Positions 3,804 to 22,181 of a DNA stretch of 23,288 nucleotides are shown in pieces. Position 1 is the first letter of the stretch. Every line of letters starts with the position of its first letter. The notes under the pieces are model-generated. The model was given only the letters and a program-made list of their open reading frames with translations. It made no database searches and was not told the origin of the DNA. Source of the stretch: a virus; IMG/VR virus record IMGVR_UViG_3300010370_000257, positions 1 to 23,288 of that record; one strand, written 5' to 3'. Made by a program: the position numbers and the translations under genes.

Positions 3804-4616
3804 ATGGGAAAAGCGCCAGGATTTTGGTTTTTTACAGGCGACTGGTTGAAGGATCCAGAGCTAAGATTTTGCTCGATTTTTGCTAGAGGTTTGCTTGTCG
3901 ATTTGCTTTGCTACATGTTTGAATCAAAACGGCAGGGCTATTTAGTTTGGCCTAACGGTAATGCAATTACGGACGAAGAAATCGCAATGTCGATCGGTGG
4001 TGGAACGCAGCAGCAAAAGGTTGACGCCATACTGGAATTGGTAGTAAAAGGCGTACTATCGAGGGATGAGAATGGCGTTTTGTATTCTCGCAGATTAGCC
4101 AGATTATCGAGTTTATCAAGCGCTCGCGCAGAAGCAGGTAGCAAAGGTGGAAGCAAACTTCAAGCAAACCGCAAGCAAAACGCTAAGCAAACTGGCAAGC
4201 AAAACACGGGGGTTTCTGATTCGGTTTCAGATTCGGTTTCAGATTCGTTTAATACCCCCCATAGCCCCCCAGGGGGCAAACGCGGGAGAAAGGCGGCCTA
4301 TCAATTTTCGTTAGCCGACATCCCAGAGTCACTAAAGATCGGCAACCCGCAGCACTTCTACCGCGCCTGGGCCCGCTGGATTCAGCATCGCCAGGAAATC
4401 AAGAAGCCGATTACGCCGACCTCGGCCGAGCAGCAACTGAAACAGTTTGACCTGTGGGGCGTGGACCGGGCTGTAGCTGCGATCGAATACACCATCGCCA
4501 AGGGCTGGCAGGGCCTTAAAGAGCCCGAGGCCAGAGACAAACAGGATTCATTTGATGAGGAGTTTGCTCGGATGCACGAGCGTGTTTCAAGGCAGGTATT
4601 AGGAGAGGTTGTATGA
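3804..4616 (+). CDS. Phage replisome organiser / replication initiation protein
   Basis: This 270-residue protein has the two-domain layout of phage origin-binding initiators. Residues 1-105 (starting MGKAPGFWFFTGDWLKDPEL) form a winged-helix-type domain of the kind found in replisome organisers. Residues about 106-165 are a Gln/Lys/Ser-rich flexible linker with repeated SDSV units. Residues 168-240 form a compact helical domain with an AAIEYTIAKGWQGL segment, seen at the end of phage replication proteins and thought to contact the helicase loader. Linker-coding DNA carries direct repeats and a G/C hairpin, a candidate origin. It is the first gene after the terminator, and a possible helicase loader follows at 5455. 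The start ATG has only a weak GGGTG upstream. Confidence 0.75.
   Translation: MGKAPGFWFFTGDWLKDPELRFCSIFARGLLVDLLCYMFESKRQGYLVWPNGNAITDEEIAMSIGGGTQQQKVDAILELVVKGVLSRDENGVLYSRRLARLSSLSSARAEAGSKGGSKLQANRKQNAKQTGKQNTGVSDSVSDSVSDSFNTPHSPPGGKRGRKAAYQFSLADIPESLKIGNPQHFYRAWARWIQHRQEIKKPITPTSAEQQLKQFDLWGVDRAVAAIEYTIAKGWQGLKEPEARDKQDSFDEEFARMHERVSRQVLGEVV
4151..4203 (+). repeat. Five AAGCAAA direct repeats at 11-12 base spacing (candidate origin iterons)
   Basis: AAGCAAA begins at 4151, 4162, 4173, 4185 and 4197, so the copies are spaced by 11, 11, 12 and 12 bases, about one helical turn apart. Spacing that is not always a multiple of three shows the array is not just a codon repeat. The repeats lie in the linker-coding part of the replication gene, the place where lambda O carries its origin iterons. 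Origin function is inferred. Confidence 0.6.
4212..4247 (+). repeat. Three tandem 12-base repeats GTTTCNGATTCG
   Basis: The unit GTTTC(T/A)GATTCG occurs three times without spacers at 4212-4223, 4224-4235 and 4236-4247, the last two identical. It encodes the VSDS repeat of the linker. It follows the AAGCAAA array directly and is followed by the hairpin GCCCCC/GGGGGC at 4264-4277. It may be part of a replication origin, or only a low-complexity coding repeat. Confidence 0.7.
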
Positions 4617-4909
4617 TTGCAAAAGTTTTTGGTTTATGGCTGCTACTCGCCGCAGCTGCGATCGCACAGGAAGTCAACAGCGACTCGGCAGCATACGCAT
4701 TCGCTAAACGTGAAGCACAGATCCAAGCCGACCGCGAGCGTGTTGGGCATTTTTTAGGGATCGCGCCGGGCTGCCGATTTGCCGGTGTAGGCTCAAGCAA
4801 TTCGACTGCAAGGCCGAATCATTGTACGACGAATCGGTATCGGCTAGTAGCCAGGGCGTTTGCTATCGGGCGAAGTGGCAAAGTTTATTGGTCTGCACAT
4901 TATCGCTAA
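4613..4909 (+). CDS. Small exported protein of planctomycete-phage type, unknown function
   Basis: This 98-residue protein has a clear signal peptide (MIAKVFGLWLLLAAAAIAQE, cleavage probably after AIA-Q at residues 18-19). The mature part has a segment HFLGIAPGCRFAGVGSS, two cysteines and an aromatic C-terminus (GKVYWSAHYR). From memory, the G..PG.RF.GVG.S signature recurs in small secreted proteins of planctomycetes and their phages, but I cannot check that here. The ATG overlaps the stop of the replication gene (ATGA). An exported protein inside a replication block is unexpected. It might act in the envelope, for example in superinfection exclusion, but nothing shows this directly. Confidence 0.6.
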   Translation: MIAKVFGLWLLLAAAAIAQEVNSDSAAYAFAKREAQIQADRERVGHFLGIAPGCRFAGVGSSNSTARPNHCTTNRYRLVARAFAIGRSGKVYWSAHYR

Positions 4910-8758: not shown

Positions 8759-10272
8759 TGGCGTGGTGGAATCCTTTTAGCGGCCAGACGAAAAAGCAAA
8801 CTCGGGTGGTGCGGGTTAAAGCGAAATACGACGCCGCGCAAACGACGTATGATAATCAAAGGCACTGGGCAGCGGCCGACGATCTATCTGCCCGCAGCGC
8901 CAATAGTGCAGACGTACGCCGGCGACTCAGAAAACGTAGCCGCTACGAAATCGCAAATAACAGTTATGCCCGAGGGATCATATCAACGCTGGCGAGCTAC
9001 ACGATTGGATCGGGTCCGACGCCTGGCCTAACTTATCTTGGGGCGGAGCTAGACCGCGAAGAAGTAAGCGCCGTAGCTAGCCAAGTGCAGCGGCTTTTCT
9101 ACGCCTGGTGGACCGAAGCCGATATTCCGACCAAGCTATCAACGGCCGCGATCGCTGTACCGCAGGATGGCGAAGCGTTTTTCACCAAATTTACGAGCCT
9201 AAACCCGTTTTGGCGATCGCCGGTACGTTTGAATGTTCGACTAATAGAAGCCGATCAGTTTGAAACCGACAGCGTCATTGCCCAGCTGGGCGTCGATGAG
9301 TCAGCAACCGAACTGGATGCCAACGGCGAAATCATGGCATACTATCTTTTGCCATATCACCCAGGCGATTTATTTGCGCCGTTCCAGAGCGCTCAGCGCA
9401 TTAGCGCCCGTGACGTTTACCATCTTTACCGAGCGGACAGGCCAGGCCAGTTGCGTGGGATTCCATGGCTGACGCCTTCCCTCGGTATTTTCGCACAGCT
9501 GCGCCGGTTTGTACTGGCGACACTTACGGCAGCCGAAACAGCCGCGGACCATGCCGCCGTATTAGAGCAGATGGCCGGCAGCGACGATGAGGACCAAGCT
9601 GAGCCGTGGGAGAGAATGGAAATTGAGCGCGGGGCTATGGTGACATTACCGGCCGGCGCGAAGTTATCCCAATTCAAAGCAGAACATCCCAACGCGACTT
9701 TTGAGCAGTTTGTGACGTCGATGATTCGTGAGGCCGCGCGATGTGTGGACATGCCCGCAGTTTTGGCAATTGATGCGTCCAAATACAACTACGCCTCGGG
9801 CCGGCTGGACCTACAAGCATTCTGGCGAACCCGCAACGCAGAGCGAGTATTGATTTACGAACGTCAAATGCTCGATCCGCTATGGCGGGATTGGCTGGAT
9901 GAAGCGCTGTTGATACCAGGATTTTTGCCGGCCGCATTTGTGGAAACAGTACAGGACTGGGCGCCGCTCTGGCGGTGGACAGAAGCCGAGCATGTAGACC
10001 GCGCAAAAGAGGCAAACGGGCAAGCTATTGAGCTAACAAATCATACAACCACACTAGCCCGAGAGTATGCCCGCCGCGGTCAGGATTGGGAAGATGAGCT
10101 GCGGCAGCGAGCCCGCGAATTGCAGTTGATGCGGGAGCTAGGATTAACCCCCCAGCAAGCCGCACCACAGCCCGCAGCGATGAACCCGGAGCCCGACGAA
10201 ACCGAGGATTTAGAGGAGTCGCCAGAGGAACAGCTAGAGGACGACATAGAGGACCAAATCGAAAATGAGTAA
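8758..10272 (+). CDS. Lambda-type portal protein
   Basis: This 504-residue protein would form the dodecameric ring at the unique vertex through which DNA enters the capsid. Family features are the N-terminal YDAAQTTYDNQRHWAAAD segment, then LRKRSRYEIANNSYARGII..LASYTIGSGP, which is characteristic of lambda gpB-type portals. A central VRLIEADQFE, the HLYRADRPGQLRGIPWL motif and a long stem/clip region follow. The C-terminus is strongly acidic (about residues 470-504). It starts one base after the connector stop and ends 8 bases into the capsid fusion gene. Length is typical for the family (about 500-530). Confidence 0.92.
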   Translation: MAWWNPFSGQTKKQTRVVRVKAKYDAAQTTYDNQRHWAAADDLSARSANSADVRRRLRKRSRYEIANNSYARGIISTLASYTIGSGPTPGLTYLGAELDREEVSAVASQVQRLFYAWWTEADIPTKLSTAAIAVPQDGEAFFTKFTSLNPFWRSPVRLNVRLIEADQFETDSVIAQLGVDESATELDANGEIMAYYLLPYHPGDLFAPFQSAQRISARDVYHLYRADRPGQLRGIPWLTPSLGIFAQLRRFVLATLTAAETAADHAAVLEQMAGSDDEDQAEPWERMEIERGAMVTLPAGAKLSQFKAEHPNATFEQFVTSMIREAARCVDMPAVLAIDASKYNYASGRLDLQAFWRTRNAERVLIYERQMLDPLWRDWLDEALLIPGFLPAAFVETVQDWAPLWRWTEAEHVDRAKEANGQAIELTNHTTTLAREYARRGQDWEDELRQRARELQLMRELGLTPQQAAPQPAAMNPEPDETEDLEESPEEQLEDDIEDQIENE

Positions 10273-12181
10273 GTTATCATTGGCCGCATCTGCCAGCATA
10301 GAAATGGCGACCAGTCCCGAGGGCGAACAACCATCGCGGCCTACCGTGGCAATTAACGCGTATAACGGCGGGCCGGTTCGCGTCGGCGCCTACCGCCATC
10401 CTGTTGTCGTGGACCTGGAAACGTTGCAGACGCCGCGAACTATACCGCTACTGCGTAGCCATGACAGCGAGCGAATTGTTGGGCACGGTGTGCCGACAAT
10501 AACAGGGCCAAATCGCCTCGATATTTCAGGCGTTATTTCAGCAAGTAATCAAGATGCCGAGCAAGTCATTGACCTGGCAAAAGGCGGCTTTCCGTGGCAG
10601 GCATCAGTAGGTGTAGACGTTGTCGCCAAACCGCAGTTTATTGCTGACGGTGAAGCGGCCACAGTCAACGGGCAAAAAGTCAACGGCCCCGCATACGTTG
10701 TGCGTGGCGGCGAGTTGTATGAAGTGAGTTTGGTAACATTGGGGGCCGACCGCTCGACTAGCGCGGCAGTGGCCGCAGAATTTCAGGAGCAGGGTACGAT
10801 GGACGAAAACACAGTTGAAGCGGGCGCAGAGATCCAGGCCGTTTTTGAAAAGGCCAAACTAGAACAAAGCCGACAAAAGGCGATCGCTGTCATTGCCGAG
10901 CGAGCGATCGATAACGGCTACGATGTGACCAGAATTGAGGCCGAAGCGCGGCGAGCGATCGAAACCAAAGCGACCCCTCAGGAATTTGAATTGCAATTGC
11001 TCAGGCAAAACCGCGTTACGCTCGGCGCAACCCAAAAGCGCAAAGTCGCCTCGCCGCAAATCTTGGAAGCGGGTTTAGCCCTAGCTATGGGCGCAAGTTT
11101 TGATTCGGAAAAGCACTACAAGCCGGAAGTTTTGGAAGCTGCCCGCGATGAGTGGAAACGCGGACTAAGTATTACGGAATTTTTGCGTATCTGTGCCCGC
11201 CGCAACGGCTGGGCAGGTGAGAGCAACAAAGATGTACGCGGCCTACTGCGGGCAGCGTTTGCGCCAGTCGAAGCCGCAAGCGGTGTATCGACCTATGACG
11301 TATCGGGCATCCTGTCCAACGTCGCGAACAAGATGATTATGGACGCCTTCAATGCAGTCGATTCTGCTTGGCGATCTATTTCCTTGATCAGCCCGGTTAG
11401 CGATTTTAAGCAGATGAAATCCTACTCGCTGGTTGGTAATCTCGATTACGAATTACTTGGCCGCGGCGAGCGCATCAAACACGGTACGCTTGGCGAAGAG
11501 GAGTACTCAAACCAGGCCGAAACCTACGCCAAGTTTATGGGGATTGATCGCCGCGACATTATCAACGACGACATGGGAGCGTTTGATCGAGTTCGCCAGC
11601 GACTGGGCCGCGGAGCTGCAACGAAGCTGAACAAAGTTTTCTGGACCGAGTTCATGGATAACAGCAGTTTCTTCGCCGCTGGAAATAACAACTACATCAC
11701 AGGCGCCACTACTAATCTTTCTAGCGAAGGTTTGCGTCAGGGCGTAGAAAAATTCATGAAGCAAACAGACCCTAACGGCGAACCGCTGGGCATCATGCCA
11801 CGGTATCTGCTAGTTCCGCCGGAACTGGACAGTATTGCCCGAGAATTGTTTGTCAGCACGAACAACAATACGGGCGGCGCAGCAACGACCGAGCGAGTAC
11901 CAAATGCTAACGTATTCGCAAATCGGTTTATTCCGGTTTCAACCCCATATTTGAGCAACAGCGCATACACTGGTTATGGCGCAAAGATTTGGTATCTGCT
12001 TGCTGATCCAGCGGATTTGGCAACGATCCAGGTAGTATTTTTGAATGGCGTACAAACGCCAACGGTGGAAAGCAGCGATGCCGATTTTGATTTGCTCGGG
12101 ATTTCGATGCGAGGTTATCACGATTTCGGCGTGAACCTGATGGAAAAACGAGCGGGCGTCAAGAGCAAGGGCGAAGCGTGA
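10265..12181 (+). CDS. Fused prohead protease - scaffold - major capsid protein
   Basis: The 638-residue polyprotein has three parts. Residues 1-175 form an HK97-type (U35/S78-like) prohead protease, with PLLRSHD (H66), WQASVGV (S114) and the GGELYEVSLVTLGAD segment (150-162) that closes the active site. Residues about 178-290 are a charged helical scaffold (delta-like) region. Residues about 290-638 are an HK97-fold major capsid protein, with the N-arm, a TLGEEEYSNQAETYAKFMGI segment that recurs in Mu gpT-like capsids, and PRYLLVPPEL near the axial domain. In-frame ATG 10799 with its own AGGAG would give the scaffold-capsid part alone. The ATG at 10265 overlaps the portal stop. Confidence 0.88.
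   Translation: MSKLSLAASASIEMATSPEGEQPSRPTVAINAYNGGPVRVGAYRHPVVVDLETLQTPRTIPLLRSHDSERIVGHGVPTITGPNRLDISGVISASNQDAEQVIDLAKGGFPWQASVGVDVVAKPQFIADGEAATVNGQKVNGPAYVVRGGELYEVSLVTLGADRSTSAAVAAEFQEQGTMDENTVEAGAEIQAVFEKAKLEQSRQKAIAVIAERAIDNGYDVTRIEAEARRAIETKATPQEFELQLLRQNRVTLGATQKRKVASPQILEAGLALAMGASFDSEKHYKPEVLEAARDEWKRGLSITEFLRICARRNGWAGESNKDVRGLLRAAFAPVEAASGVSTYDVSGILSNVANKMIMDAFNAVDSAWRSISLISPVSDFKQMKSYSLVGNLDYELLGRGERIKHGTLGEEEYSNQAETYAKFMGIDRRDIINDDMGAFDRVRQRLGRGAATKLNKVFWTEFMDNSSFFAAGNNNYITGATTNLSSEGLRQGVEKFMKQTDPNGEPLGIMPRYLLVPPELDSIARELFVSTNNNTGGAATTERVPNANVFANRFIPVSTPYLSNSAYTGYGAKIWYLLADPADLATIQVVFLNGVQTPTVESSDADFDLLGISMRGYHDFGVNLMEKRAGVKSKGEA
10785..10789 (+). promoter_or_regulatory. Internal Shine-Dalgarno for a nested scaffold-capsid start at 10799
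   Basis: AGGAG lies 9 bases before the in-frame ATG at 10799 (residue 179 of the fusion), exactly at the boundary between the protease domain and the scaffold region. This is better than most ribosome-binding sites in the window. It predicts a second 460-residue product lacking the protease. Confidence 0.6.
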
Positions 12182-12564: not shown

Positions 12565-12977
12565 GCGCATGGTTTGATTTGCGTGAAAAAGTCAAAACAC
12601 AAATCAATGCGCTGACTGGATTTGAAACCATCGTTGGCAATATCCCTACTCTGGAACGAGCTGACCTAACAGCACCAAAAATATTGGTTGTTCCAGCAGG
12701 GGCAGCAATCGAGTTTTTAAACAGAAGTTCTACACCAAAAACATTGGATTTGTTTGTTGCGTTTTTTGCGCCGCTCGATACCGACACAGCAAAATGGGAT
12801 GATCTGGCGAGTGAATATCTAGGGGACATGGAACGCATTATAGAAATGCTGATGGAAGATTGGCCCGAGGGTTATAGGACAATCGAGGTGGAGTGGTCAA
12901 CGCCGATCAGCGAGGACAGGTGGCGCAACGTGTCGCAATTTGCTTCTATTGCAAGAGTGAGCTACAGACAGTTATGA
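12561..12977 (+). CDS. Head or tail completion (neck) protein candidate
   Basis: This 138-residue alpha/beta protein starts at ATG 12561, overlapping the previous stop (ATGA). An N-terminal helix (WFDLREKVKTQINALTGF) is followed by ILVVPAGAAIEFL and a TLDLFVAFFAPLDTD strand, then a helix with DLASEYLGDMERIIEML, and ends with W-S-T-P...ASIARVSYRQL strands. The alternating strand-helix fold and the location between the stopper-like protein and the next small genes fit tail-terminator (gpU/gp17-like) or neck proteins. Not assigned to a precise family. Confidence 0.55.
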   Translation: MSAWFDLREKVKTQINALTGFETIVGNIPTLERADLTAPKILVVPAGAAIEFLNRSSTPKTLDLFVAFFAPLDTDTAKWDDLASEYLGDMERIIEMLMEDWPEGYRTIEVEWSTPISEDRWRNVSQFASIARVSYRQL

Positions 12978-13282
12978 ACGAACTAGAGCAATCCATTATT
13001 TCCGTTTTGACCGCGGCCCGCAGCGGCGGCGTACTAACCCGGTTTGGGCTCATCGATATGCTATTACAGCGGCTCGATTTCCTACGGGCGCTCATTGCAG
13101 GGCTCGACAAAGAAGCGGTACTGGATTTGATTAACAAGCTGTACGATGAATACATTGCGCCACTGGATATACCAGGGGTACCAAACTTTATCGTCGAACC
13201 TCAAATCGATGCCGCAGTTAAAGCTGTTGTTTTGGCAATCGTATCGCAAGTCATCGATAAGGCAAAAGCCGATGAAGCGTAA
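12974..13282 (+). CDS. 102-residue hypothetical helical protein
   Basis: The start is ATG 12974, overlapping the stop of the neck-type gene (ATGA); the frame is open further upstream but inside that gene. The protein is helical (MNELEQSIISVLTAARSGGVL, then KLYDEYIAPLDIPGVPNFIVEP) with a hydrophobic C-terminal helix (AVVLAIVSQVI) that is amphipathic rather than a clear membrane span. It is the last gene before the lipoprotein gene, which starts inside it at 13272. I do not recognise a family. It could belong to the connector block or be the first gene of the lysis cassette. Confidence 0.6.
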   Translation: MNELEQSIISVLTAARSGGVLTRFGLIDMLLQRLDFLRALIAGLDKEAVLDLINKLYDEYIAPLDIPGVPNFIVEPQIDAAVKAVVLAIVSQVIDKAKADEA

Positions 13283-13631
13283 GCAATTGCTGTTTGACGT
13301 TGGGTGTTTCTTGATCTGCGTTTGTGCGGCAGTCATCGGCTGCGCAACCGTTAGCCCGCGCGATCGCAATACGGCAGATGAATTTTTGCGGCAGTACGCG
13401 ATCGGCTTGCATGGCGCATTCAGCGAAGCGGCCGCAGCTGTCGAGCAGGGCGGCGTGAAAACAGATGCGGAATTGCTTGAGTTTTTGAAGCCGAGGACAG
13501 AATCAGCCAGAAAAGAAGCGGCCGCGACGATCGACAATTACATGGAAAGCAACATCAGCGATGGCGAGCTGAAGAAAAGCGACGCAACAGCGCTCAGGAA
13601 TCTGGCGAATCAATTTCGAGGTGCGCCATGA
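13272..13631 (+). CDS. Phage lipoprotein (possible outer-membrane spanin or lysis accessory)
   Basis: This 119-residue protein has a lipoprotein signal: basic start MKRKQ, hydrophobic core, then the lipobox V-I-G-C with the lipid-anchor cysteine at position 24. The mature part is helical and charged (DEFLRQYAIGLHGAF, then KPRTESARKEAAATIDNYM), ending in Gln-Phe-Arg-Gly. The ATG lies inside the end of the previous gene (10 bases overlap). A phage lipoprotein next to a peptidase and a small membrane protein fits an o-spanin-like or lysis-accessory role, acting at the outer or cytoplasmic membrane. A superinfection-exclusion lipoprotein is an alternative. Confidence 0.65.
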   Translation: MKRKQLLFDVGCFLICVCAAVIGCATVSPRDRNTADEFLRQYAIGLHGAFSEAAAAVEQGGVKTDAELLEFLKPRTESARKEAAATIDNYMESNISDGELKKSDATALRNLANQFRGAP

Positions 13632-14467
13632 TCGAAAATTTTGGCTATCGAATCGACCTGGAAAACCGCGATGACCTGGCCGGTATGTGCCAGCCCATGC
13701 TACTAAAAAGTGGCGAATTTAATGAGCCCGAGCGGGTAGACCCCAGGCCCATCGTCATTACCGAGGATCAGGGAAACATGGGCAGCTGCCAGGGGCATAG
13801 CCTCTCGACCTGCCTAGAATGGTGCCACTACATTGCTACGCAGGGACAATACCTACAGCTAAGCCGTTTATTTGCCTACCTCGGATCACAAAAAATGAGC
13901 GGCATTGTCGGCGACTCGGGCAGCACGCTACATGGCGGCGCAAGACTGGCCATGGAATATGGCATCTGCCCAGAGGCGCAGTATCCATACCCGCGACCTG
14001 TCGTTTACCCGCGCGGTGGCTATAAGGCTATACCGGACAATTTGTGGGCCGCAGCGGCGCCGTACAAGATTCGCAGTTCAACATGGATCGAGCAGGAGGC
14101 CGACGCAAAAACATTTCTCGCCAGCGCAGCGGGACTAATAAACATTGGCATTGCTTGGGGGCCCGCGATGACCCCAAACAGCCAAGGTATCATTAGCCGT
14201 TTTGCGCCAGGTGGCGGCGGTCATGCAGTCGTTATCGGCGGCTATGTGCCAGACGCAGCAGTCGGCCGAGCGACAGCCCAAGGCTATTATTACCTAATCC
14301 ATAACAGCCATTCGCATCGCTGGGGAATGAAGGGCTGGGCGTATGTGACGCCGGACGCAGTTAGGCAGATGCTTCAGGATCGATTTACCTATTTTGTGGG
14401 GCTCAGCGATATGAGCGAAGTAAAACCCCGTAGTATTGATTTTATCAAGGAATCGGTGATTCAATGA
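13628..14467 (+). CDS. Papain-like (C1A) cysteine peptidase, possible endolysin substitute
   Basis: This 279-residue cysteine protease has a complete papain-type active site. EDQGNMGSCQGHS gives the oxyanion Gln48 and nucleophile Cys54, GGGGHAVVIGGY gives His199, and LIHNSHSHRWGMKGWAYV gives Asn226 followed by the conserved Trp. A YPYPRP segment (119-124) matches the Tyr-Pro-Tyr signature of C1A enzymes. There is no signal peptide, pro-region or membrane segment, so it would be cytoplasmic until a holin releases it. It starts inside the lipoprotein stop (ATGA) and precedes an exported peptide and a holin-like gene. A lytic role is inferred; structural maturation is an alternative. Confidence 0.8.
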   Translation: MIENFGYRIDLENRDDLAGMCQPMLLKSGEFNEPERVDPRPIVITEDQGNMGSCQGHSLSTCLEWCHYIATQGQYLQLSRLFAYLGSQKMSGIVGDSGSTLHGGARLAMEYGICPEAQYPYPRPVVYPRGGYKAIPDNLWAAAAPYKIRSSTWIEQEADAKTFLASAAGLINIGIAWGPAMTPNSQGIISRFAPGGGGHAVVIGGYVPDAAVGRATAQGYYYLIHNSHSHRWGMKGWAYVTPDAVRQMLQDRFTYFVGLSDMSEVKPRSIDFIKESVIQ

Positions 14468-14673
14468 ACGCGTTTATTTTGGCGATGGTGCTAGCCCAAG
14501 ATCCAGTATGTATCAACGGAAATTGCCGGCCGGCAACAGTCGCAAGGGAATCGGCTGACGCACCAACCGTACGCCGGCCGGCAGTTGTCCAGCGATCTAT
14601 CGAGGTGCAGCGATCGGCGCAGGTACAGCGTCCACCCCGATTGTTTACGCGTTTGCGATGGTGGAGAAAGTAG
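14464..14673 (+). CDS. Small exported Arg/Val-rich peptide
   Basis: This 69-residue protein has a short signal peptide (MNAFILAMVLAQ), two cysteines (CINGNC, residues 18-23) and a repetitive basic C-terminus with VQRS/VQRP units near residues 42-56, ending LFTRLRWWRK. The Arg/Trp-rich end resembles cationic membrane-active peptides, but this is only composition. It starts in the stop of the peptidase gene (ATGA). It may act in the envelope during lysis. It is the third protein with an export signal in this window. Confidence 0.55.
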   Translation: MNAFILAMVLAQDPVCINGNCRPATVARESADAPTVRRPAVVQRSIEVQRSAQVQRPPRLFTRLRWWRK

Positions 14674-14675
14674 CA

Positions 14676-14840
14676 ATGGAACCAACGGTTGTAATGGGCG
14701 CTATGACCGCAGGTATGGCCGCTATGTCGGCGGCGCTAACGGTACTGTGGCGACGATTTGAAAAGCTAGCCAATGATTGCGAGGAAGACCGGCGCAAGCT
14801 GTGGTCTGAAATTGCGGATTTGAAAAAGACACATGATTAA
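14676..14840 (+). CDS. Small single-span membrane protein, holin-like candidate
   Basis: This 54-residue protein reads MEPTVVMGAMTAGMAAMSAALTVLW (membrane segment about residues 4-25) followed by a charged helix (RRFEKLANDCEEDRRKLWSEIADLKK). One N-terminal span with a cytoplasmic coiled-coil tail fits a small holin or pinholin, and also inner-membrane spanin-like proteins. I chose ATG 14676 because GGAG (14663-14666) is 9 bases upstream; an in-frame ATG at 14658 would add six residues. It overlaps the next gene by 8 bases. Confidence 0.6.
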   Translation: MEPTVVMGAMTAGMAAMSAALTVLWRRFEKLANDCEEDRRKLWSEIADLKKTHD

Positions 14841-20830: not shown

Positions 20831-21366
20831 TGGCGTTACCAGATTATTTTGTACAGACCCAAGGCACAGCGGTTATTTGGCGAGACAGCGGCGGAACTGG
20901 CGGCACGGCGGTTATCACGCTTGACGCACTCGCAGACGGATCGGCCCGCATGGGTGCAGCGGTTGACCTTGGAGCAAACTGGAATCGTGAATACCTGGTC
21001 ACGCTGGTGGTCGAAACCGGAACAGCACCAACCGCTGGCAACCGAGTCGATCTGTATTTTGCTTGCTCTTACGACAATAGCCTCTGGCCCGCTGGCGTGA
21101 CGGGCAGCGATGGTGCGTGGCCCGCAGACGGTAACGAGGATGAATGGGCCGTTCAATTGGGTTGGCCTGTAACAAGCCTTTTGGCTACGAATGATGGCAA
21201 CACAACACAGGTGCAAAATCCGGTTATCTGGCGACCTTCTGGCAGATACGTCGCTCCTGTTGTTGACAACAATCTAGGCCAAGCGTTCCGCGATCAAGCT
21301 ACCGCAGCGAACAATACATCACGAATTATTTTAGTTCCGATTCGCGATTCGGTGGTTGATACATGA
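20830..21366 (+). CDS. Beta-rich tail fibre/spike component
   Basis: This 178-residue beta-sheet protein has an ATG that shares its first base with the preceding TAA stop. Segments include VITLDALADGSARMGAAVDLG, YLVTLVVETGTAPTAGNRVDLYFACSYD, a WPAGVTGSDGAW loop and a RIILVPIRD end. The arrangement (ALA.GSAR...AVDLG, then A.TAGN.VDLYFA, then a final strand) is common in jelly-roll-like tail decorations and fibre proteins encoded before receptor-binding genes. It precedes the LamG-domain gene by a 4-base overlap and is probably assembled with it. Confidence 0.6.
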   Translation: MALPDYFVQTQGTAVIWRDSGGTGGTAVITLDALADGSARMGAAVDLGANWNREYLVTLVVETGTAPTAGNRVDLYFACSYDNSLWPAGVTGSDGAWPADGNEDEWAVQLGWPVTSLLATNDGNTTQVQNPVIWRPSGRYVAPVVDNNLGQAFRDQATAANNTSRIILVPIRDSVVDT

Positions 21367-22181
21367 TGAATCAGGTCGTGGTGAGTCAGCAAACAGGCTA
21401 CGCACGCAATGCCAGTGAATCAGCGTACCCAAATCTATGGCGTGGCCTCATAGGCTGGTGGCTACCATCGGTGAATCCGCGCGGAGGCAATCGCCTTTTT
21501 GATTTGTCGCCATTTCGCAACCACGGCACGCTCACCAACATGGCCAACGATGATTGGGTTGTGAGCCAAGGGGCTGGTGCGTTGGATTTCGATGGGGTGA
21601 ATGATTTTGTAGACAATAATCCGTGGACAACAAATTTAGGCACTGGAGATTTTTCGTTATCGGCATGGATTAAAACTTCATCTTCAACACGCCAAACAAT
21701 CTTTGGTGCTTATAACGGTTCTCTGGTTGATTCAGGCGTTTTTTTAGACGTATTGTCAACCGGAAAGATTCGCTCAACCGCTGTTCAAGATTCTTCAGCA
21801 AGATTGATTTATGCGGATAGCAACTCATCAGCAGCAACGGGGTCATGGACACATATTTGTGGCGTGCGCAGAAGCGCAACGATGGATGTTTACGTCAATG
21901 GAAAGATAGACAATGGCGTACAGTCCAGTTTAGGAAACCCAAACGTAGCAATAACAGGTTCACACAGAATTGGTTCGGGCAGGTCAGATGCTGGCTATTC
22001 ATCGCCTTTTAACGGCCAAATCGATGACGCAAGGGTGTACAATCGCGCCCTAACCCCTCCCGAAATCCGTCAACTTGCCAGCAAACGTGGCATCGGCCTA
22101 CAACCACGACCAAAACAATTTACCTATTATCAATTCCCATCGGGCAGCAAACGCCGAAGAATCTTAACGGGGATGCCATAA
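21363..22181 (+). CDS. LamG-like (concanavalin A-fold) tail adhesin
   Basis: The protein has 272 residues. Residues about 25-230 form a LamG/LamGL jelly roll: GLIGWWLPS, FDLSPFRNHGTL, GALDFDGVNDFVD, TGDFSLSAWIKT, SWTHICGVRRSATMDVYVNGK and the closing FNGQIDDARVYNRALTPPEIRQLA, which is a very typical end. Such domains bind glycans, so this is a likely receptor-binding protein of the tail tip. The tail after residue 235 is basic (KQFTYYQFPSGSKRRR). Two adjacent ATGs (21363, 21366) are possible starts. G+A-rich, AT-leaning DNA near 21640-21900 differs slightly from its neighbours, as often seen in adhesin genes. Confidence 0.85.
   Translation: MMNQVVVSQQTGYARNASESAYPNLWRGLIGWWLPSVNPRGGNRLFDLSPFRNHGTLTNMANDDWVVSQGAGALDFDGVNDFVDNNPWTTNLGTGDFSLSAWIKTSSSTRQTIFGAYNGSLVDSGVFLDVLSTGKIRSTAVQDSSARLIYADSNSSAATGSWTHICGVRRSATMDVYVNGKIDNGVQSSLGNPNVAITGSHRIGSGRSDAGYSSPFNGQIDDARVYNRALTPPEIRQLASKRGIGLQPRPKQFTYYQFPSGSKRRRILTGMP

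Follow-up and report, generated by a model that had tools for sequence, protein, structure and literature searches.

The closest described counterparts of the locus reported here are the holin-endolysin-spanin cassettes. These share with it and its relatives a soluble enzyme without a signal peptide, anchored lipoprotein or membrane partners, and a neck-tail or pre-terminase position, which is typical for lysis genes, and with many of the distant relatives also a holin-like gene. Endolysins of the CHAP and NlpC/P60 types belong to branches of the broad papain-like fold that cut stem or cross-link peptides. Viruses of methanogens encode PeiW and PeiP, pseudomurein endoisopeptidases that are likewise protease-type lytic enzymes fitted to an unusual host wall and that belong to a different family from the peptidase described below. 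PeiW and PeiP are named in a 2025 census of viral lytic proteins, the main text of which makes no mention of Planctomycetes, papain or thioredoxin (PMC12596118). For the phage that a deep-sea planctomycete sheds, a chronic mode with no lysis is described (PMC10945688). A literature search on planctomycete phages returned no paper by the phrases tried, and lysis of planctomycetes by phages is undescribed in the papers found.

The window analyzed here is a stretch of 23,288 bases that constitutes the complete IMG/VR record IMGVR_UViG_3300010370_000257. We propose, with a probability of roughly 0.6, that it carries the cassette with which a small tailed phage lyses its Planctomycetota host, and that a papain-like (C1A) cysteine peptidase acts there as the lytic enzyme, no peptidoglycan hydrolase being recognizable. 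The cassette would differ from holin-endolysin-spanin cassettes in that the peptidase replaces the peptidoglycan hydrolase and an exported thioredoxin-like or CX4C partner is added.

Sister contigs were collected using the capsid and portal proteins as queries. One contig of 12 kb is 99.98% identical to the window. Terminal repeats are present in the sister genomes G001 (exact, 127 bp), G003 (200 bp at 99%) and G005 (146 bp at 96%). Together with the break points, which vary among the sister contigs, these repeats indicate circular permutation of the sister genomes and a length of about 23-24.5 kb. Judged by these sequences, the window is a nearly whole, circularly permuted genome of ~24 kb, and the spacing of the 22181 and 271 homologues in G003 implies that the missing stretch is short. 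Elsewhere in the window, a conserved early-region protein with a signal peptide (MIAKVFGLWLLLAAAAIAQ) is encoded at 4613-4909 and is 65-84% identical in relatives. The protein encoded at 21363-22181 contains a LamG-type lectin domain (Laminin_G_3, 9.5e-27) and is a candidate receptor-binding protein.

Four genes on the plus strand form the proposed cassette: a lipoprotein of 119 aa (13272-13631), the papain-like peptidase of 279 aa (13628-14467), an exported peptide of 69 aa (14464-14673) and a one-span protein of 54 aa (14676-14840). The first three overlap by 4 nt each; the fourth begins 2 nt beyond the third and shares 8 nt with the gene that follows. An earlier note on this DNA had described four overlapping genes in a neck-tail slot; the coordinates and the slot stand. 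Within the window clade the slot is bounded by head-tail joining genes on one side and by a gene with weak tail-completion matches on the other. The peptidase occupies the same slot, at 67-85% identity, in the sister contigs that reach this region. Relative to the sister genomes, pN is well below pS for all four genes, least clearly for the exported peptide, which indicates that the four ORFs are real genes under purifying selection. A helical protein of 102 aa is encoded directly upstream on the plus strand (12974-13282), in a gene that overlaps the lipoprotein gene, and is 41-75% identical within the clade by tblastn. No convincing family match was obtained for this protein in Pfam and PHROG-type profile scans, and a profile comparison detected no kinship to the gene ahead of the one for the anchored protein in distant cassettes (probability about 1% by hhalign). 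Its place in the cassette is uncertain.

The product of gene 13272 contains, as the earlier note had read it, a lipobox (VIGC, with Cys24); it also has a helical domain and is the conserved upstream partner of the peptidase. The profile of its family matches 139 of 154 peptidase loci and, among the peptidase-negative loci, only one contig, which ends before the peptidase. In this family the anchor is often a membrane span and not a lipobox. The 14464 peptide carries a signal sequence, a CX4C motif (CINGNC) and a basic tail. A signal peptide ending in ALAQ or similar, the CX4C motif (CPNGQC in most relatives) and a basic C-terminus are conserved in its relatives. The same note had called it an exported Arg/Trp-rich peptide; export and the basic C-terminus hold across the family, and the richness in Trp is inconsistent among relatives. 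The peptide is not a thioredoxin by the Pfam test (PF00085), for which 14464-14673 gave no match, and its motif is CX4C rather than CXXC; from the comparison of loci it is the positional counterpart of the exported thioredoxin-like proteins in distant cassettes.

The ORF for the one-span protein was confirmed at 14676-14840, together with the charged coiled-coil tail (CEEDRRKLW) noted earlier. By family profile, a protein of this type is present in every sister genome, for part of them elsewhere in the genome. In one branch of the clade (G001, oriented 4429-4647, and G002, G004 and G005) the gene has been relocated between the 19485 and 20372 homologues. A spanin pair consists of an outer-membrane lipoprotein and an inner-membrane partner with a periplasmic coiled coil. 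The 13272 lipoprotein and the one-span 14676 protein might be read in this way, but by its charge pattern and the positive-inside rule the tail of the 14676 protein is probably cytoplasmic, and a span often takes the place of the lipobox in the 13272 family.

A distant homologue of the peptidase was found in the 59-kb genome G013 by whole-record search. The gene next to it encodes a coiled-coil lipoprotein that ends in NCPNGQC and a basic tail, like the exported peptide of the window. Related peptidases were then located at 143 viral loci using a widened alignment, of which 80 were kept. These loci belong to at least three unrelated phage backbones and occupy differing genome positions. The recurring gene order is a holin-like protein, an anchored helical protein of the 13272 family, the peptidase, an exported thioredoxin-like or CX4-5C protein and a charged one-span protein of the 14676 family. 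Because the loci are phylogenetically non-independent and the partner profiles, which replaced a regex CXXC census judged too crude, were built from members of the same locus set, the following counts describe linkage and carry no significance test: of the 32 full loci (distinct loci with enough flank), 30 have a 13272-type protein upstream of the peptidase, 18 a holin-like ORF, 19 a thioredoxin-like ORF and 19 a 14676-type protein by profile, and a further 12 have a CX4-5C or CGPC exported protein identified by eye. Among 101 peptidase-negative loci of capsid relatives, one holin-like ORF and no 13272-type, thioredoxin-like or 14676-type protein was found, and none has the whole set.

The exported thiol protein downstream of the peptidase is thioredoxin-like in most loci and has a CX4-5C tail in the window clade and in the large phages. 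Matches to Pfam Thioredoxin (PF00085) above the cut-off were obtained for L276:10417-11316 (6e-6) and L278:10178-10723 (1.5e-6). The holin-like ORF of L183 (3440-3649) matches the PHROG lysis family 9987 (phrog_9987) at 2.8e-5. In G428, a terminally repeated genome of 41 kb with an HK97-type capsid, portal and terminase, the cassette lies just upstream of the terminase genes, and in G013 it is likewise upstream of the terminase. Phages of 117-205 kb carry it beside a baseplate-J-like gene, near a matrixin with a PG_binding_1-like domain. That composition is kept while position shifts on unrelated backbones is expected of a host-adapted functional unit, an inference drawn from sequence comparison. 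The comparison of gene neighborhoods proposed in the earlier note thus shows the peptidase recurring with anchored and exported thiol partners.

Two further observations concern genes outside the common set. The matrixin metalloprotease of the 117-205 kb phages (L180:8310-9233; also in G026, G027 and G028; Pfam M10, 2.4e-36) is encoded shortly upstream of the papain-like peptidase and has the PG_binding_1-like domain at its N-terminus and a cysteine-switch-like motif, PRCGCPD. Among the proteins of G428 and G001, one matches Pfam Evr1_Alr, a sulfhydryl oxidase family, at 1.7e-8; by sequence it is possibly the G428 protein at oriented positions 25863-26267, and a link to the cassette's thiol chemistry is conceivable.

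No wall hydrolase was recognized among the window proteins scanned with family profiles, in agreement with the earlier reading that the window has no recognizable lysozyme, amidase, transglycosylase or NlpC/P60 gene. Amidase_2 and NlpC/P60 were absent from the 34 records searched, and phage lysozyme, SLT and Amidase_3 from the 28 records searched, with matches obtained in the control genomes in both cases. These searches took in 24 peptidase-positive records, four of them of 117-205 kb. Pfam scans of the larger ORFs (90 aa or more and uncut by piece ends) of the three terminally repeated genomes G001, G427 and G428 found no wall hydrolase; the families recovered were capsid, terminase, portal, recombination and lectin. 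CHAP had no match in the Pfam scans of the window and of these three genomes; this result, and the absence of NlpC/P60 from the records searched, set the cassette apart from endolysins of those types. An endolysin just outside the window, which would have argued against the lysis cassette, is not supported by the sister genomes with repeated ends, in which these searches recognized no wall hydrolase. Peptidase-negative viral records likewise lack the endolysin families searched; being short fragments, they serve poorly as a positive control.

In the complete genomes many ORFs match no Pfam family, and the absence of known families leaves room for a hydrolase that could belong to an unknown one. 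Peptidoglycan has been shown in several Planctomycetes and is lysozyme-sensitive in some (PMC4432640), so that an unrecognized hydrolase could still be needed. The peptidase might then be an accessory lysis factor, spanin-like and directed against an outer protein layer, and the sacculus would be cut by a hydrolase that is one of the unassigned proteins. A spanin-like role of this kind could suit the anchored lipoprotein. We regard this arrangement as unlikely, though worth serious consideration, given that none of the 24 peptidase-positive records, the four large ones included, has a common endolysin family and that the peptidase adjoins the holin-like gene, the usual place of an endolysin.

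The peptidase was assigned by a match to Pfam Peptidase_C1 (PF00112) at 4.1e-10 and 40.5 bits, against a curated cut-off of 20.7. The catalytic residues Gln48 of the oxyanion hole (codon 13769-13771), the nucleophile Cys54 (13787-13789), His199 (14222-14224) and Asn226 (14303-14305), all encoded on the plus strand, are unchanged in 17 distinct close relatives and invariant in a 16-row alignment that extends down to 34% identity. An AlphaFold model computed with an alignment reaching 34-37% identity has a pLDDT of 84.3 and a pTM of 0.87; close relatives alone gave a pLDDT of 36. The nearest solved structure is xylellain (PDB 3ois), with a Foldseek value of 6e-14 and a Z of 23.8 over 244 residues, and xylellain is also the closest solved relative by sequence (5.7e-15 with the family profile). 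Cathepsins and papain-like plant enzymes follow at a Z of about 19-20. Xylellain shares the papain-like catalytic arrangement; it differs in being a cellular enzyme of Xylella fastidiosa, 22-23% identical and outside any phage cassette. No signal peptide is apparent in the sequence of the window peptidase, and no wall-binding domain was found in it by Pfam scan. By profile, catalytic set and predicted fold the protein is a member of papain family C1, and proteolysis is its predicted activity. The papain-like fold, the complete catalytic set and the lack of a signal peptide were all anticipated in the earlier note, and the search against peptidase families proposed there returned Peptidase_C1 above the cut-off.

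The same fold and catalytic set, the endolysin-like position beside the holin and the absence of another recognized endolysin would also be compatible with a papain-like endolysin of the peptidoglycan type, which would cut stem or cross-link peptides of planctomycete peptidoglycan and be novel in enzyme family only. This is considered distinctly unlikely. The close structural matches are all protein-cutting C1A enzymes rather than CHAP or NlpC/P60, a wall-binding domain is missing, and a thioredoxin partner is, to our knowledge, no feature of peptidoglycan endolysins.

A planctomycete host, as suggested in the earlier note, is supported by the capsid and by the module itself. Searching bacterial genomes with the capsid alignment gave 80 loci at 38-43% identity, which are phylogenetically non-independent; by contig title 65 are Planctomycetota, 12 stand under other names and 3 are titled only as bacteria. 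The peptidase profile at 1e-5 matched 15 of 392 genomes of the planctomycete phylum and 7 of 398 from a second phylum, sampled around a genome titled Pseudomonadales; at this loose threshold the contrast is weak. Full-length matches below 1e-70 number three and are all from Planctomycetota; the best match in the second phylum is 5e-22. A scan of genome contigs with the alignment of close peptidase relatives alone gave no matches. The strongest matches in planctomycete chromosomes carry the same module of anchored protein, peptidase and thioredoxin-like protein. In two Planctomycetota chromosomes (L276 and L277, at about 8.6-14.8 kb), an ATPase-like gene and a gene with a terminase-like motif, HSKTTDIA, come after the module, perhaps as a prophage remnant.

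The presence of the module in chromosomes with few other recognizable phage genes nearby, its location beside baseplate genes in large phages and the export of its partners could point away from lysis, to an exported or virion-borne protease that modifies the envelope with its thiol partner, be it for entry, for the exclusion of superinfecting phages or for the turnover of surface proteins of the host. Such a role is also considered unlikely: the peptidase has no signal peptide, a holin of a PHROG lysis class is encoded just upstream in distant cassettes, and the complete genomes have no other recognizable lysis enzyme. A head-maturation protease, an alternative raised in the earlier note and suggested by a protease gene in the head-to-tail region, is very improbable and was rejected, since the maturation activity is fused to the major capsid protein (10265-12181; phrog_4523, 1.4e-65; phrog_3244, 6.6e-20 over residues 58-208), and the peptidase recurs in HK97-type phages that have their own ClpP-type head protease and is absent from the loci of distant capsid relatives.

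The proposal of a lysis cassette built on a papain-like peptidase is thus favored by comparison, through the conserved partners, the position and the lack of a recognizable endolysin, and from these we infer lysis itself, the substrate, export and the roles of the partners. Lacking a signal peptide, the peptidase would be synthesized in the cytoplasm and leave it through a membrane lesion. This lesion would be formed in distant cassettes by the holin-like protein, whose gene lies just upstream; for the window clade the best candidate holin is the one-span 14676 protein. Once in the periplasm, the peptidase would encounter the anchored lipoprotein of gene 13272, which may hold it in place, act as its chaperone or keep it in check. 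The peptidase would then cleave a protein layer that bears the load, or peptides linked to the wall. The exported thiol protein could keep the catalytic Cys54 reduced or open disulfide-linked wall proteins. Most Planctomycetales are reported to lack peptidoglycan genes and to possess a protein wall with cysteine-rich YTV proteins (PMC8567305), which are a plausible target of this chemistry. The lysis reading is weakened in that no homologue of the distant-cassette holin was found in the window clade, where the cassette departs in this respect from holin-endolysin-spanin systems, and in that the exported peptide has CX4C and not the CXXC of thioredoxin. It is offered only tentatively, and we lean against it as a general rule, that phages of Planctomycetota share a hitherto undescribed mode of lysis, in which a cysteine peptidase would act with an exported protein, thioredoxin or another thiol protein, to dismantle a disulfide-linked protein wall without a peptidoglycan hydrolase, the large phages adding a matrixin metalloprotease.

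Among 50,697 GenBank phage records nothing matches the window peptidase significantly (best E 0.1). For distant members of the family the same records gave either none or one partial match, at 25% identity in an uncultured 595-kb phage, and for the thioredoxin-like partner no match. Given the lack of a clear relative among these records, the peptidase family could serve to mark planctomycete viruses in metagenomes. As no usual wall-dissolving enzyme was found, the route by which these phages lyse their hosts may be an undescribed one. It is still debated whether planctomycetes owe the strength of their envelope to peptidoglycan, to protein or to both. A conserved cassette in which a peptidase and a thiol protein replace the endolysin would be virus-side evidence on what holds a planctomycete cell together, and the cassette would supply enzymes for direct tests of the planctomycete envelope.
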